Shown: positions 3,521-54,239 of the stretch, one piece after another
How the letters are laid out: every line of letters begins with the position of its first letter
Numbering within the stretch: position 1 is the stretch's first letter
NCBI GenBank assembly: GCA_031272245.1
Contig: JAISUE010000004.1
Span: 1-59,189 of the forward strand
Length of the DNA: 59,189 nucleotides
DNA from: Bacteroidales bacterium
GTDB lineage: Bacteria > Bacteroidota > Bacteroidia > Bacteroidales > P3
Reading direction: 5' to 3'
Translations under genes and position numbers: made by a program
Notes under the pieces: model-generated
What the model was told of the DNA's origin: nothing
The model's input: the letters and a program-made list of their open reading frames with translations, nothing else
Database searches by the model: none

Positions 3521-3719
3521 ATAAAAATAAAAAAGTTGTTTTATTTTATTTGAATATATTTGGTTAAGAATAATTTAGATACATATATATTTGTTATTAT
3601 TACTAATTATTTATGTTGCAGAAATATAATTTTGAAATTCTCCATATCGGAAAAATATTTTGCAAAATAAATCTTTATTGCACGGCGTAAAAAATATTAA
3701 TTGTGTAACAATAGCGATA

Positions 3720-3795
3720 AATCTTGATTAATTGCTAATAAATTTTGATTATTTGGGAATAAATCTTGATTAAGCACAAAATAATTTTGATTATT
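3720..3795. repeat. Four-copy AT-rich intergenic repeat, 21-bp period (core TTGATTA)
   Basis: TTGATTA at 3724, 3745, 3766 and 3787: exact 21-bp spacing. Confidence 0.85.
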
Positions 3796-3882
3796 TAGAA
3801 ATCAAATTTAGAAGGTTGAAAATGATTGTTGTTATTTCTTCTTTGTAAAAATAGGCTTTTTGAATTTTTTACTTTGTTTTCG

Positions 3883-6731: not shown

Positions 6732-6827
6732 ATTAAAATTACGCTATATTTTTTTGTACCGTTTATTAAAGGAGTTATAAAAGTATATAAGATAAAAATG
6801 AAATAAGTCAAATATATAGAATTTTAT

Positions 6828-6899
6828 AATCAAGTTTTAGAAATATAAATCTTGACTTTATATTTTTTTAATCAAGTTTTATATTTCTAAAATTTGATT
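6828..6899. repeat. About 21-bp-period AT-rich repeat that also forms a 22-bp-arm inverted repeat
   Basis: Arms AATCAAGTTTTAGAAATATAAA (6828-6849) and TTTATATTTCTAAAATTTGATT (6878-6899); 21/22 Watson-Crick plus one G.T. Confidence 0.8.
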
Positions 6900-6968
6900 T
6901 TAGTATATTAAAACGAAGTAATAATTACACTTATCTTAATGCTTGTTTTATAATTAAAATGATTTTAT

Positions 6969-20999: not shown

Positions 21000-21007
21000 C
21001 AAAAGTA
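21000..21007 (-). promoter_or_regulatory. -7 promoter box (TACTTTTG) of mutA
   Basis: Forward strand CAAAAGTA upstream of the mutA start. Confidence 0.55.
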
Positions 21008-21045
21008 GTGTTTTTTTTAAATATTCATTTATTATTATTTTTTAC

Positions 21046-21053
21046 TACTTTTG
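21046..21053 (+). promoter_or_regulatory. -7 promoter box of tandem cassette 1 (TACTTTTG)
   Basis: Preceded by AAATATTCATTTATTA and a T-tract, shared with cassette 2. Confidence 0.65.
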
Positions 21054-21109
21054 CAACATACGTTATTTATTATTTAAATAATAGTAATTTTCATATTGAT
21101 TTGAAATTG

Positions 21110-21142
21110 ACAGACATGGCGGGTAATATATCCGCCATCTGT
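21110..21142 (+). ncRNA. Hairpin of cassette 1 (putative short RNA element)
   Basis: ACAG-ac-ATGGCGGGT-AATAT-ATCCGCCAT-CTGT; 9-bp inner stem with one G.U and a 4-bp outer stem. Confidence 0.5.
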
Positions 21143-21213
21143 TTTATGAGTTACGGCATGACAAAGAAGACATATTTTTTACGTAAAAATATTCATTTAT
21201 TAATTTTTTTTAA

Positions 21214-21221
21214 TACCTTTG
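21214..21221 (+). promoter_or_regulatory. -7 promoter box of tandem cassette 2 (TACCTTTG)
   Basis: Exactly 168 bp downstream of the cassette 1 box, same upstream AAATATTCATTTATTA and T-tract. Confidence 0.65.
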
Positions 21222-21285
21222 CAACTTTGTTATGTTATAGTATAATTTTCAATTTGTAGGTTTTGTTTACTTATTATTGTGAAAG

Positions 21286-21304
21286 GGCGGGCAATATGTC
21301 CGCC
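21286..21304 (+). ncRNA. Hairpin of cassette 2 (putative short RNA element)
   Basis: GGCGGGC-AATAT-GTCCGCC, same loop as cassette 1; GGCGG start is exactly 168 bp downstream of that in cassette 1. Confidence 0.5.
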
Positions 21305-21319
21305 TTTACTTTTGCCCCA

Positions 21320-21348
21320 TATCAATAAAAAAATGCCACATATTGATA
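21320..21348. repeat. 8-bp perfect inverted repeat TATCAATA/TATTGATA upstream of the third promoter
   Basis: TATCAATA (21320-21327) and TATTGATA (21341-21348) separated by 13 nt. Confidence 0.7.
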
Positions 21349-21367
21349 CGGTTTCAAGATTTTTTTG

Positions 21368-21375
21368 TACTTTTG
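21368..21375 (+). promoter_or_regulatory. -7 promoter box (TACTTTTG) of the repeat-ORF/FN3-like transcription unit
   Basis: TTTTTTTGTACTTTTGCAA, 35 nt upstream of ATG 21410. Confidence 0.65.
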
Positions 21376-21409
21376 CAATATCTAACAACATAAAAACGAA
21401 AATTACAGC

Positions 21410-21658
21410 ATGTCAAAACGTATAAATATCTCAAAAAACAACAGGTCGCACTACTTACTGCATATCTCCGATTTATGCTGCAATTCATACCGCAATTCAT
21501 ACCACACATACCTTACAAATTATGAAACATACAAAATATTGAGCGGTACGTCCCACAAATTCATTGGTACGTACCGCAAATTCATTGGTATGTACCACAA
21601 ATTCATTGGTACGTACCTTTTTGATTTTGGTAGGCATTATAATTTTGAACATAAATAA
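21410..21658 (+). CDS. Hypothetical 82-aa protein with heptapeptide repeats (GTxxKFI)
   Basis: Open frame after the third promoter; 21-bp DNA repeat reads as GTSHKFI GTYRKFI GMYHKFI GTYLFDF. Coding status uncertain. Confidence 0.35.
   Translation: MSKRINISKNNRSHYLLHISDLCCNSYRNSYHTYLTNYETYKILSGTSHKFIGTYRKFIGMYHKFIGTYLFDFGRHYNFEHK
21545..21617. repeat. 21-bp-period tandem array with palindromic core GGTACGTACC
   Basis: Cores at 21545 (GGTACGTCCC), 21566 (GGTACGTACC), 21587 (GGTATGTACC) and 21608 (GGTACGTACC), spacer RCAAATTCATT; 12-bp relatives GCAATTCATACC at 21480-21503. Confidence 0.9.
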
Positions 21659-21702
21659 TTAAAACAAAATAATATATCATTAATAAAAAAAATTAAGCAG
21701 TT

Positions 21703-22386
21703 ATGACTTACAGTAAGGATTGGATATTTAGAAAAGAGGATGATTTTTTTCATCAGGCTGAAGTTCAAGTAGATTACTATGACCAGCAAAAAGAGTTCCT
21801 TGAAATTCCAAGTGCCACAGTTACAAATTTGAAAGCCGAATTTCAAAAGTATAAATCCGACTACGAACTTTATCTGGCAAGCAACAAAAGCGCCACAAAG
21901 CCGGATACCATTAAACGGAATATGCATAAAGAAGTGGTTATCGGATTATTACGGGATATGTACAACTTGTACGTGCGTCTTAATCCAAAAGTGAAGAATG
22001 ATGACAGAGAAGCAAACTATTTTCCTGTATTTGACACCAAAAAAACATCGCTTCACCCGCCTCTTGAACCGCCTGTCTTTGAAGTTAAAGCAATGGGACA
22101 CGGATTGATAGAATTGGCATTCGGATATAATATGACGGACGGCGGAAAACTCTCTCACGGTTTGCCAAAAGGTGCGGACGGAGTTGCAATTCATTACTTC
22201 ATAGGAGATGTTGAACCGACTACAGCCGACAAAATGCTGTCGTGGGGAGTAGATACGAGAAGCCCAATTAAAATGATATTCGGTGCAGAGAACGAAAGCA
22301 AAAGAGTATGGATCGCAATGAGATATTTCAATGTCAAAGGCGAGTATTCATTGTGGTCGGACATAAAGTCACTGGTAATCAATTAA
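21703..22386 (+). CDS. Uncharacterised protein, helical N-terminus and FN3-like C-terminus
   Basis: 227 aa; C-terminal GADGVAIHYFIGD...SPIKMIFGAENESKRVWIAMRYFNVKGEYSLWSDIKSLVIN reads as a beta-sandwich ending. Confidence 0.85.
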   Translation: MTYSKDWIFRKEDDFFHQAEVQVDYYDQQKEFLEIPSATVTNLKAEFQKYKSDYELYLASNKSATKPDTIKRNMHKEVVIGLLRDMYNLYVRLNPKVKNDDREANYFPVFDTKKTSLHPPLEPPVFEVKAMGHGLIELAFGYNMTDGGKLSHGLPKGADGVAIHYFIGDVEPTTADKMLSWGVDTRSPIKMIFGAENESKRVWIAMRYFNVKGEYSLWSDIKSLVIN

Positions 22387-22397
22387 GAAAAAGTTAA

Positions 22398-22488
22398 GGG
22401 GTAGCCGAAAACCTTTGATAGAGTAGGCTTGGTTTTAAAATAGTAAATACAGTGAGAGGCTAACCCACAGGGGATGCCTCTTTTTTTT
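22398..22488 (+). ncRNA. Putative structured RNA with competing pairings and terminal intrinsic terminator
   Basis: GGGTAGCC (22399-22406) can pair with GGCTAACCC (22458-22466); AAAACC (22408-22413) with GGTTTT (22431-22436); competing terminator stem AGAGGC/GCCTCT. Confidence 0.5.
22455..22488 (+). terminator. Intrinsic terminator upstream of porZ-like gene
   Basis: AGAGGC(taaCCCacagGGGat)GCCTCT followed by a T run. Confidence 0.8.
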
Positions 22489-22555
22489 GCTCAAAAAGAG
22501 GATTTTACAATAAAATCACCCGATTTTCGTTTATTTAACCATAAAAATATGTAAG

Positions 22556-31880: not shown

Positions 31881-32063
31881 ATGGATTTGTTATATAATCA
31901 CAGACACACAGTAATTTATCCAAACGGACAGCAAACGAGTTATAGTAAATTTAAATACTATATTTATGGTATACTTGTGCCTTTTTTACCATTTTTAATT
32001 ATTTGCAGTAATATATTTATCCACAAACACTCAAAAGATTATGGCTTGGTTAATAAAAACTGA
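31881..32063 (+). CDS. Hypothetical small protein with one TM segment
   Basis: 60-aa ORF downstream of a TATTTTTG box near 31840; hydrophobic YYIYGILVPFLPFLIICSNIFI. Confidence 0.35.
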   Translation: MDLLYNHRHTVIYPNGQQTSYSKFKYYIYGILVPFLPFLIICSNIFIHKHSKDYGLVNKN

Positions 32064-32361
32064 GAAGAAGTTTTATGAAACAGTAGTTGCACATAGAACT
32101 TTTTATAAAAACAATCAATCTGCGTTGAAAATAAACAGCAAGGATAAAGCAAAATACAGAGCAGCGTTTGCAAAATATGAAGAGGCATACAAAAACAGTT
32201 TTTCTGATGTAGCCTCACAGCAAAATATAGTTAAGAGACATTTTGCTCGAGAAGAGATGGAAATAATGGAACGATTTTTCTATAATAAATATATCAAATA
32301 CAAATGTGTTTTTTCAAATGAGATATTGTTATTGAACAAGTTTCCCAAGAATAAAAAATAA
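32041..32361 (+). CDS. Hypothetical protein, lysine-rich
   Basis: 106-aa ORF MAWLIKTEKKFYETVVAHRTFYKNNQSALKINSKDKAKYRAAFAKYEEAYK... Confidence 0.5.
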   Translation: MAWLIKTEKKFYETVVAHRTFYKNNQSALKINSKDKAKYRAAFAKYEEAYKNSFSDVASQQNIVKRHFAREEMEIMERFFYNKYIKYKCVFSNEILLLNKFPKNKK

Positions 32362-36145: not shown

Positions 36146-37209
36146 TAGAAACACGTAAAAAACATAACAGAATAGTTATGTTAAACAATGCAGCAATTTT
36201 TATTGTGTCGTACTTGATAGTTTTTTACATATATCAACTTTTTACTTTAATACCTGCTTTTGCTCTGCAAATACCTTCGGTATTTCATACGGGATACATT
36301 GATTTTGATTCTGTAACTTCTTCTGCTTCGGCAGATGTTTGGCAAGACAAAGATAATATCTTTGCAGTTTTTGGTACATCGCCGTTAGTGATAGCAATCT
36401 TTGTTCTCTTTAATATATTAATTTTAACAGCGGCGGTTCATAAATTAAATTATTCATTGAGCGTTTTTTGTTTTTGGAATATTGTAAACGGCATATTGCG
36501 ATTTTTGGGTAATTTTATTTCCGGGCATATCTTTTATTTATGGTCTTCCAATCTGATAACTGATTTTTTGGGTTTATCTTATCCTTCAAAAATTGGCACT
36601 CTGCTATGTGTAATCGTAGCATTGATAATTACTTTTTTATGTATTACTTCTACAGTAAGACTTATTAAATATGTATTTAATCCTTTTACCGGTGCTGTAA
36701 AAGAAAAAGTTCTTTATTATATTTTGCTTCCTGTTTTAATTGGTATTTTGTTTCTATATACATATCTTTCGATTCCTAAATTTAACGAAAATGAATTTGG
36801 TATTTTTATTCTCACAGCTGCATCAGTTTATTTGATTTATTTTATGACAAACCGCAAATACAAAAACATAAAGGAAAGACGTGAAAGTATGTATGTGAAG
36901 TTCAATCGTCCTTTAATAATATCTGTATTAGTTTTACCATTTATTAAAATAATAACAGATAGAGGCATAAGTATTAATGCTTCTGTTTATCGCCAATACA
37001 TAATAGAAATGTTTCTTTTAATCAGTTTTTCACTTATAGCTTTTATAACTCTTGTATCTGTAATTTATTATTTTCATAAAAGACGTAAAATTCATAAACA
37101 GAAAATACTTAATGCACAAAATACATTCATAGAAAATAATGCTGATATAAATAATGCTGAATGGGGTATAAAGAAGCATGATATGGATAAATATAAAGAT
37201 GTATTGTAA
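36136..37209 (+). CDS. Multi-pass membrane protein of unknown function
   Basis: 357 aa with about eight hydrophobic segments; overlaps the upstream ORF by 10 bp. Confidence 0.75.
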   Translation: MEIIETRKKHNRIVMLNNAAIFIVSYLIVFYIYQLFTLIPAFALQIPSVFHTGYIDFDSVTSSASADVWQDKDNIFAVFGTSPLVIAIFVLFNILILTAAVHKLNYSLSVFCFWNIVNGILRFLGNFISGHIFYLWSSNLITDFLGLSYPSKIGTLLCVIVALIITFLCITSTVRLIKYVFNPFTGAVKEKVLYYILLPVLIGILFLYTYLSIPKFNENEFGIFILTAASVYLIYFMTNRKYKNIKERRESMYVKFNRPLIISVLVLPFIKIITDRGISINASVYRQYIIEMFLLISFSLIAFITLVSVIYYFHKRRKIHKQKILNAQNTFIENNADINNAEWGIKKHDMDKYKDVL

Positions 37210-37254
37210 AATATTTACTTTAATAAAATTAATAGTGCTAATTTTCTAATAAAA

Positions 37255-37330
37255 ATGTTTTGATTTTAGAATAAAAGTTTTTAATTTTGGATTAAAATGT
37301 TTTGACTTTGGATTAAAATGTTTTGATTTT
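37255..37330. repeat. Four-copy AT-rich intergenic repeat, 21-bp period (core TTTTGATTTTGGATTAAAATG)
   Basis: TTGA/TTAA cores at 37260, 37281, 37302 and 37323: exact 21-bp spacing. Confidence 0.85.
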
Positions 37331-37431
37331 CAATAAATGTAAATAATATCATTTTTAATTAAAATAGTAATTTTGTCATACAGATAAACTGAAAAAAGAT
37401 AAAAAGTAAATAATAATTTAAAATTAAACTT

Positions 37432-47720: not shown

Positions 47721-49070
47721 ATGAAAAGAACGTTTTTTTTAATAGCAAATATTTTTGTTTTTGTTGTAAATGCTTTATCTCAATCGGTGCTTCCAACGGA
47801 TGCTTGTGCGGAAACAGATGAGCGTATAATAGATAAAATAGAACAATGGCAGGACTTGAAATTCGGTTTTATGGTTCATTGGGGAATGTATTCGCAATGG
47901 GGAATAGTTGAAAGTTGGAGTGTATGTAATGAACCATGGATTTCTCGTAATGGGAAACCTTATGATGATTATAAGAAAGAGTATTTTTCTTTGAACAAAA
48001 CATTTAATCCTGAGAATTTTAATCCTGATAAATGGGCAGAGATTGCCGAGAAAGCAGGAATGAAATATTTTGTTTTTACTACCAAACATCACGATGGTTT
48101 CTGTATGTTTAATACTAAACAGACAGATTTCAGCATTGTTAATAAACAATGTCCATATTCTGTTAATGAAAAAGCCGATATAACAGGTGAGCTTGTAAAG
48201 AGTTTTCGTAAAAAGAATTTTTGGACTGGATTATATTTTTCCAAACCTGATTGGCATAATGAAGATTACTGGTCGCCTCTTTGGGCTACTCCAGACCGCA
48301 ATGTTAATTACAACATAGAAGATTTTCCGGATAAATGGGAACGGTTTTGTAATTTTACTTATGAACAGATAAAGGAACTAACTACTCAATATGACCCTGA
48401 TATACTTTGGCTGGATGGAGGTTGGATACGTCCTGTGTGGAGTTTGAATGAAGAAACTGCTGAATGGCTTGGATGTTATAAAAGAATACAGGATATAAAT
48501 ATGAGTCGTATAGCCATAATGGCAAGAGAAACTAATCCAGAACTTATTATAGTGGATAGGAGTGTTGGGGGAAAGTATGAAAACTATCATACACCTGAAA
48601 AAAAAGTGCCTGATTCTGTGCTTTTGTATCCGTGGGAAACTTGTATGACAATGGGTGAAAGCTGGTCGTATGTGCCTGATGACAATTATAAATCGGTTAA
48701 TACTTTGATACATCTTTTAATAGATATTGTTGCAAAAGGTGGAAATCTTCTGTTGAATGTTGGTCCTGATGCTCAAGGAGAGTTACCTCCGCAAGCTATT
48801 CAAAGAATGGAAGCAATAGGAGAATGGTTATCGTTAAATGGACAGGCTATTTATGCTACAAAACCTGTGTTTCCATACAAAGAAGGTAATATTTGTTATA
48901 CGCAATCAAAGAAAAATGGACAAATTTATGCTATTTATTTGCTTGAAGAAAATGAGATGTTGCCTGAAAAAATAGTGGTAAATAAAAATGGTGAAATAAA
49001 AAAGATAAAAATTTCACGCAAACAGCAGAAGCAAAGTAAATGTTCTCATGCTGTGGTTTTTCCTTTATAG
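47721..49070 (+). CDS. GH29 alpha-L-fucosidase
   Basis: Signal peptide, KFGFMVHWGMYSQWG, AGMKYFVFTTKHHDGFCMFNTKQTDFSI, YDPDILWLDGGW, GGNLLLNVGPDAQGELP. Confidence 0.93.
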   Translation: MKRTFFLIANIFVFVVNALSQSVLPTDACAETDERIIDKIEQWQDLKFGFMVHWGMYSQWGIVESWSVCNEPWISRNGKPYDDYKKEYFSLNKTFNPENFNPDKWAEIAEKAGMKYFVFTTKHHDGFCMFNTKQTDFSIVNKQCPYSVNEKADITGELVKSFRKKNFWTGLYFSKPDWHNEDYWSPLWATPDRNVNYNIEDFPDKWERFCNFTYEQIKELTTQYDPDILWLDGGWIRPVWSLNEETAEWLGCYKRIQDINMSRIAIMARETNPELIIVDRSVGGKYENYHTPEKKVPDSVLLYPWETCMTMGESWSYVPDDNYKSVNTLIHLLIDIVAKGGNLLLNVGPDAQGELPPQAIQRMEAIGEWLSLNGQAIYATKPVFPYKEGNICYTQSKKNGQIYAIYLLEENEMLPEKIVVNKNGEIKKIKISRKQQKQSKCSHAVVFPL

Positions 49071-49132
49071 ATTAAAAACTTGAATTTTAAGATTAAAATT
49101 TTGAATTTGTATATCAAAATCTTTATTTTTGA
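49071..49132. repeat. Three-copy AT-rich intergenic repeat, 21-bp period
   Basis: ATTAAAAACTTGAATTTTAAG / ATTAAAATTTTGAATTTGTAT / ATCAAAATCTTTATTTTTGAA; TTGA/TTTA cores at 49080, 49101 and 49122. Confidence 0.8.
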
Positions 49133-49191
49133 AATGAAAAACAGCATTTTTTTCAGATAATTTTTTTTCTTTTTACTTATTCAAAAAAATC

Positions 49192-53891: not shown

Positions 53892-53998
53892 AGAAAACTT
53901 GCAGACTTAAATAAATGCCTCAATTTTTTCCTGAAAAGTAACTGTCGGGCAGGGGATGGGGCATGGGCGGACATCTCCTGCAACTTACCGAAAGTTAT

Positions 53999-54012
53999 TC
54001 GCCCGCGGGCGA
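53999..54012. repeat. 14-bp perfect GC-rich palindrome TCGCCCGCGGGCGA
   Basis: Direct reading; self-complementary. Confidence 0.85.
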
Positions 54013-54040
54013 TTTAAAGAAACCGGCGGATTCAGACTTT

Positions 54041-54169
54041 CGCCCCACGCCGAAAGTCTCCTGCAATTTACGAGAAGGTTTCGCCCCACGCCGAAAGTCT
54101 CCTGCAATTTGCGAGAAGGTTTCGCCCCACGCCGAAAGTCTCCTGCAATTTACGAGAAGATTTCGCCCC
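54041..54169. repeat. Three-copy 41-bp tandem repeat, GC-rich, intergenic
   Basis: CGCCCCACGCCGAAAGTCTCCTGCAATTTACGAGAAGGTTT at 54041, 54082 and 54123, then a partial CGCCCC. Confidence 0.95.
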
Positions 54170-54199
54170 CAAAAATTTGTGTATTTAATATAAATTACA

Positions 54200-54207
54200 T
54201 ATTTTTG
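54200..54207 (+). promoter_or_regulatory. -7 promoter box (TATTTTTG) of the M28 peptidase gene
   Basis: TATTTTTG 33 nt upstream of ATG 54240. Confidence 0.6.
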
Positions 54208-54239
54208 CCCGCAGAAAAATAACCAAGCCCGTACGAAAT

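Follow-up and report, generated by a model that had tools for sequence, protein, structure and literature searches.

In REP/BIME systems, palindromic repeats lie in genome-wide intergenic arrays and also flank the RAYT gene, and iterons match the protein that binds them. CRISPR and other guide arrays consist of short units beside a protein gene, and in type III toxin-antitoxin loci (ToxIN, CptIN, and TenpIN) tandem repeats are located directly upstream of one small gene, the antitoxin repeats differing in length and number (PMC5449768). We compared with these systems a locus of a Bacteroidales bacterium in which a 21-bp tandem array precedes the gene for an uncharacterised FN3-like protein. 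Array and gene together apparently constitute a recurring two-part module of the Bacteroidota that is new to description, and the module fails membership in every known kind tested; this claim excludes the composite locus in which it was noticed. Like REP/BIME and RAYT, the module combines palindromic intergenic arrays with a gene that has repeats in its flank, but it has no Y1 (HUH) transposase fold, keeps a strict 21-bp period, and its units are generally not common to gene copies and orphan arrays. It resembles iteron and operator arrays in its direct repeats of about 21 bp, two-turn-phased, dyad-symmetric and near a gene, whereas its unit changes while the neighbouring protein stays nearly constant. 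Unlike CRISPR and guide arrays, it has neither a constant repeat with variable spacers nor a nuclease, and the window unit has no exact match in viral contigs. The likeness to type III toxin-antitoxin loci is one of position: the units are 21 bp long, palindromic as DNA, free of RNA-strand bias and unrelated between near-identical proteins, and the helical-plus-FN3 protein did not match a ToxN/CptN/TenpN-type endoribonuclease (Pfam, PADLOC, Foldseek). An open-access literature search for 21-bp intergenic arrays in Bacteroidota gave no paper.

The window, that is, the whole 59,189-nucleotide stretch analysed, is contig C39 of the host genome (G000, 1.8 Mb). A sequence-only reading had proposed that two hairpin cassettes, an inverted repeat, a third promoter, a small repeat ORF, an FN3-like protein and a structured 3' RNA form a single functional unit, and a check of the sequence found each of these elements at or near the place assigned to it. 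All are on the plus strand except the inverted repeat and the array, which carry no strand. Cassette 1 (21046-21142), which lies outside the core module, comprises a TAnnTTTG promoter at 21046-21053 and the hairpin GGCGGGTAATATATCCGCC at 21118-21136 (terminator-like hairpin 21116-21138); its sister, cassette 2 (21214-21311), comprises a TAnnTTTG promoter at 21214-21221 and the hairpin GGCGGGCAATATGTCCGCC at 21286-21304. The two hairpins, against none expected in shuffles, have GGCGGGYAATATRTCCGCC in common (0 expected by chance) and fold with z -4.4 and -2.2, respectively. Two copies of their sequence are present in the window, and none in 25 other genomes of the family and order with one mismatch allowed; the cassettes look like a local tandem duplication of a promoter and a terminator-like hairpin. 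The inverted repeat, TATCAATA..TATTGATA (ATATCAATA...TATTGATAC), is there in sequence at about 21320-21348, but its RNA fold is not above chance (z -1.1). A third Bacteroidetes-type promoter, TACTTTTG, at 21368-21375, lies 5' of the array, and TAnnTTTG is thus found at all three positions (21046, 21214, and 21368) for which a promoter had been claimed. The core module extends from 21527 to 22388 and contains the array (21545-21617), whose four units of 21 bp, GGTACGTCCC/GGTACGTACC/GGTATGTACC/GGTACGTACC, each consist of a GGTAYGTACC palindrome and a spacer of about 11 bp, and the gene for the 227-aa FN3-like protein (21703-22386). An 82-aa ORF (21410-21658) runs across the array; the repeats within the small ORF of the sequence-only reading are real, but the coding status of that ORF is unsupported.

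A paralogous copy on contig C67 of the same genome marks out the core. Homology between C39 and C67 covers 21527-22388 at 88% nucleotide identity, from the array through the stop codon of the gene and no further. The C67 protein is 83% identical in amino acids to that of the window and its gene now has a stop codon; dN/dS between the two genes is 0.31, and the pair is under purifying selection. Duplication of array and gene as one block was seen in this one pair. The proposal of a single unit drew on the physical adjacency of its parts, but the duplicated block holds the array and the gene only, leaving out the cassettes and the 3' RNA; the cassettes are peculiar to the window locus, with 0 of 25 other genomes carrying them, and porZ in 10 family members is without the parts upstream. 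In one congener (G315), no FN3-like gene lies directly upstream of porZ, and a quite different 21-bp array (L219, 13904-14043) lies near its porZ locus (L181).

The RNA that had been drawn at 22398-22488 is structured, but it is in fact a DUF805b RNA (Rfam RF02914) at 22395-22429 plus a separate intrinsic terminator at 22455-22488 (stem 22455-22481, AGAGGC..GCCTCT, then 8 T). The DUF805b copy scores 41.5 bits against the RF02914 covariance model (cut-off 35.6, E 2e-8) and has both pseudoknot strands, AGCC/GGCT, intact. In score and pseudoknot strands it is thus like the DUF805b/DUF805 family (RF02914/RF03081); unlike the other copies, it has no ORF start at the usual leader distance and runs into the terminator, the start of porZ lying 127 nt past the RNA. 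In the several genomes checked, an ORF starts within 90 nt after 35 of 36 other copies, and in 26 of those 35 the start follows a conserved AGAGTAGG at a distance of 20-24 nt, a near-fixed spacing that points to translation-initiation control. Three further copies in the host genome each precede a small lipoprotein gene. Copies are often clustered, one per gene (L165, L166, L167, and L168, with further copies at L347-L366), and head ORFs of papain-like peptidase type, of lysozyme type or for short double-glycine leader peptides (named by eye). Because the window copy is without the usual ORF, and porZ in 10 family members is without the RNA pattern upstream, this copy is best read as an orphaned leader; a role as a conserved porZ regulator was rejected on the latter ground. 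A three-codon frame, GTG AGA GGC TAA, lies at about the usual distance after the orphan RNA and overlaps the terminator stem (22427-22463). An open-access literature search for the DUF805b RNA gave no paper.

Some association of this RNA with the FN3-like family does exist. A DUF805 or DUF805b copy lies at most about 400 nt downstream and on the same strand at six family loci (the window, L058, L074 = L086, L080, L121, and L130; a copy at L103, 1 kb off, was left out), where about 0.1 would be expected by a rough estimate from 4-20 copies per genome. The proximity is thus genuine, though it involves roughly one locus in ten; the RNA is missing at most relatives, and elsewhere DUF805b heads many unrelated genes. 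When the refuting condition set by the sequence-only reading was applied to the relatives, the array recurred (56 of 66 loci), while the cassettes never did (0 of 25 other genomes) and the RNA did so in a minority. The idea that cassettes, array, protein and 3' RNA make up one composite system is already largely refuted, and we give it almost no credence; what survives of the proposed undescribed system is the smaller core of array and FN3-like gene.

Pairing of array and gene was examined at named loci of the protein family, 80 of which were fetched from species genomes, with plain ORFs as gene calls. They come chiefly from Paludibacter, Tannerella, Prevotellaceae and Dysgonomonadaceae MAGs, with some from Flavobacteriaceae and Chitinophagaceae, a taxonomic breadth that is biased because the homolog seeds were Bacteroidales. 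Family members at L120, L122, L152, and L157, in MAGs labelled Planctomycetaceae, Zoogloeaceae and Spirochaetia, are most likely mis-binned Bacteroidota contigs. To the named loci whose upstream sequence measured 150 bp or more we applied a simple lag-match statistic, over the 600 bp preceding the gene. The best self-match fell at lag 21 or 42 in 56 of 66, and 55 of these 56 exceeded their own shuffle maximum. Downstream regions had a best period of 21/42 in 2 of 63 cases (85% upstream vs 3% downstream; Fisher p 2e-23, with loci that share one genome not independent). The 56 array loci were drawn from 42 of 48 genomes, and about 15% of family loci show no array. The contigs of L060, L069, L101, L107, L109, and L128, and likewise those of L140, L145, L150, L151, L156, and L157, start no more than a few hundred bases upstream of the family gene, suggesting that assemblies break in arrays; with several contigs starting or ending close upstream of such genes, short-read assemblies probably hide part of the module.

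The TAnnTTTG motif was found 17 times in the 150 bp preceding the array (5.0 expected) and three times between the array and the ATG (3.8 expected). Since the motif is enriched before the array and not after it, the array usually seems to lie within the transcribed leader, to which L017 looks like an exception. On the other side of the gene, the following gene has the same orientation in 41 of 46 loci (general co-orientation in the sampled genomes is 75%), and 25 of 41 encode exported proteins by a home-made signal-peptide rule, compared with a background of 31%. These downstream genes come from many families, and a fixed operon partner was accordingly rejected.

For the 227-aa protein, AlphaFold2 on a 65-row alignment gave a model with pLDDT 93.9, in which helices at residues 12-29, 37-59, 66-91, and 99-104 are followed by a C-terminal FN3 sandwich (125-225) that resembles solved FN3 domains (Foldseek against PDB: E 2e-4, prob 1.0). 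The claimed FN3-like ORF is thus borne out at the level of predicted fold; at the level of sequence, the protein matches no Pfam FN3 model and belongs to no Pfam, NCBIfam, PHROG or PADLOC family. It appears to be without a convincing signal peptide and is probably cytosolic. We recognised no DNA-binding fold in it (median family pI 7.1), and neither Pfam searches nor the predicted structure nor Foldseek revealed a recombinase or nuclease domain. A first contig scan with three divergent rows returned zero matches; a weak three-row profile matched in 10 of 295 genomes of the order, and an improved profile found 6, 16, and 12 family copies in three congeneric genomes. A truncated paralog of 106 aa, helical part only, lies elsewhere in the window (32041-32361). 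Neither the family nor an exact match to the window unit was found in viral contigs, and a link to phage was rejected.

Several properties of the arrays bear on whether they act as protein, RNA or DNA. Differences among units are not phased by codon (p 0.97), and the arrays are crossed by open frames equally on both strands (57/63 plus, 56/63 minus). The units are strongly dyad-symmetric (z 7.6; longest arm z 12.6), and mismatches at dyad positions show no bias toward pairs tolerated in RNA (G-T 121 vs A-C 131, p 0.57). Because this symmetry is equal on both strands, the array signal more likely resides in double-stranded DNA. With 21 bp equal to seven codons, the arrays might instead encode small heptad-repeat proteins such as the KFxGxYR peptide of the window, and open frames with a KFxGxY-like heptad do occur at several arrays of the host genome. 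Against this, codon phase and strand preference are absent, an in-frame stop precedes the array at C60, and the two ORFs that match best have unrelated N-terminal portions (the N-terminal half of the 82-aa ORF is not common to the C67 copy); an array acting as protein was rejected, and we regard such peptides as barely credible. An array of RNA hairpins is disfavoured as well: their folding exceeds that of column-shuffled controls (mean z -1.9) but comes without strand bias. That folding, together with the placement of a probably transcribed repeat array directly 5' of a single small protein gene, would suit a type III toxin-antitoxin-like arrangement in which the repeat RNA binds and inhibits the downstream protein. 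We nevertheless consider this very improbable, given that dyad positions show no excess of G-U over A-C, that proteins 90-95% identical have unrelated units, and that the protein has an FN3 fold and falls in no toxin or defence family (Pfam, PADLOC).

The units themselves differ completely from locus to locus. At L117 and L118, the proteins are 95% identical in amino acids while the units agree at 13 of 21 positions; at L130 and L132, the proteins are 90% identical and the units agree at 10 of 21, where shuffled units give a mean of 9.7 and a 95th percentile of 12 (of 21). The 99% identical proteins of L121 and L123 have a common unit, which turnover that is simply fast would predict. The L118 unit resembles that of L121, yet the L118 protein is nearest to L117. 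Because near-identical proteins have unrelated units, and because the affinities of unit and protein disagree at L118, we infer from these comparisons that arrays are replaced or swapped without a matching change in the protein.

Arrays of this kind also occur away from the gene. The window unit recurs in an orphan six-unit array on contig C60 of the same genome (G000), and further intergenic 21/42-bp arrays with distinct units lie in the window at 3688-3837, 6797-6928, 37199-37378, and 49056-49174, where an FN3-like gene is not adjacent. In 455 kb of the host genome, which hold about 94 intergenic gaps over 200 bp, there are 14 intergenic arrays with period 21/42 and two with other periods. 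Orphan arrays occupy ordinary intergenic gaps with no clear preference in orientation and are weakly dyad-symmetric (z 4.2). In a partial sampling of about 2 Mb from 36 Bacteroidales genomes, 21/42 is the commonest period of intergenic arrays (43 of 62). Of genomes with at least 20 kb sampled, arrays were found in seven of nine with the gene family and in three of 17 without it (p 0.0085). Orphan arrays are present in the family-free genomes G078, G274, G313, and G010, and are many in G078; with the association moderate and such clear exceptions, a requirement of the FN3 gene for arrays was rejected. Since arrays exist without the gene, even in family-free genomes, the gene may not be what the array serves.

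The strongest rival to a functional pairing is that in these genomes the arrays are non-adaptive minisatellites, 21-bp repeats generated by slippage or palindrome-assisted replication that the leaders of FN3 genes merely tolerate. The prevalence of the 21/42 period among intergenic arrays, the orphan arrays that lie remote from any FN3 gene or in genomes lacking one, the locus-specific units and the weaker dyads of the orphan arrays all fit such an origin. It accounts less well for a frequency upstream of FN3 genes that is far above both that downstream and that of ordinary intergenic DNA (the 14 arrays in 455 kb), or for the co-duplication of array with gene, and we hold it to be somewhat unlikely.

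Alternatively, the arrays may be sites used or left behind by recombination or transposition, as parts of a selfish or mobile element that also carries the FN3 gene. The multi-copy family in the three congeneric genomes, the block duplication of array and gene, the lineage-specific insertion before porZ, and decayed copies (the stop codon at C67 and the truncated 32041-32361) are in keeping with this, as is a second array family in the host genome (C22, C62, C81, and C45) whose flanks are conserved, like those of a dispersed element. We judge this quite unlikely, however, as the protein lacks a recombinase or nuclease domain, a target-site signature was not demonstrated, and the family was not found in viral contigs. 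Dispersed repeats were noticed as well: at L172, L173, L174, and L218 (8316-8461), conserved flanks surround a GGTAGCCCCCATGAAATTTGC array, one such element lying upstream of an ispG-like gene (named by eye), and similar 41-bp tandem arrays of GAGACTTTCGGCGTGGGGC and its complement at 53993-54216 of the window and at L206 (9047-9540) are apparently another dispersed repeat.

The reading that we favour, with a probability of roughly 0.4, is that of a duplicating FN3 gene with a fast-turning-over, two-turn-phased array of double-stranded DNA sites in its leader, which tunes expression. The palindromic 21-bp units, in the upstream or leader region and usually between promoter and start codon, would form a row of putative dimer-binding sites lined up along the same helical face, and these sites would set or tune how strongly the FN3 gene is expressed. 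Both the sequence of the unit and the number of copies would change fast through slippage and through exchange with orphan arrays of the same genome, such that each copy of the array ends with its own sequence. In the window, one such module may have landed between mutA and porZ, where it would adjoin an independent orphan DUF805b leader with a terminator, as well as the two promoter-terminator cassettes that were duplicated locally. Quite unlikely, but the most novel of the readings, is that the FN3-like proteins, or a complex containing them, bind, shape or maintain the arrays by their two-turn, dyad geometry and not by sequence. Were this so, array sequence would be free to vary, every locus would have a tag of its own, and the dozens of orphan arrays would constitute a genome-wide network of sites.

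Whatever its basis, the pairing ties an unnamed, Bacteroidota-wide protein family to a DNA feature commonly written off as a minisatellite, one whose length and symmetry are fixed while its sequence is almost unfixed. If the tie is not functional, the strict 21-bp intergenic period still wants a mutational explanation; if it is functional, the array would be a sequence-free, geometry-based cis element, invisible to ordinary motif searches.
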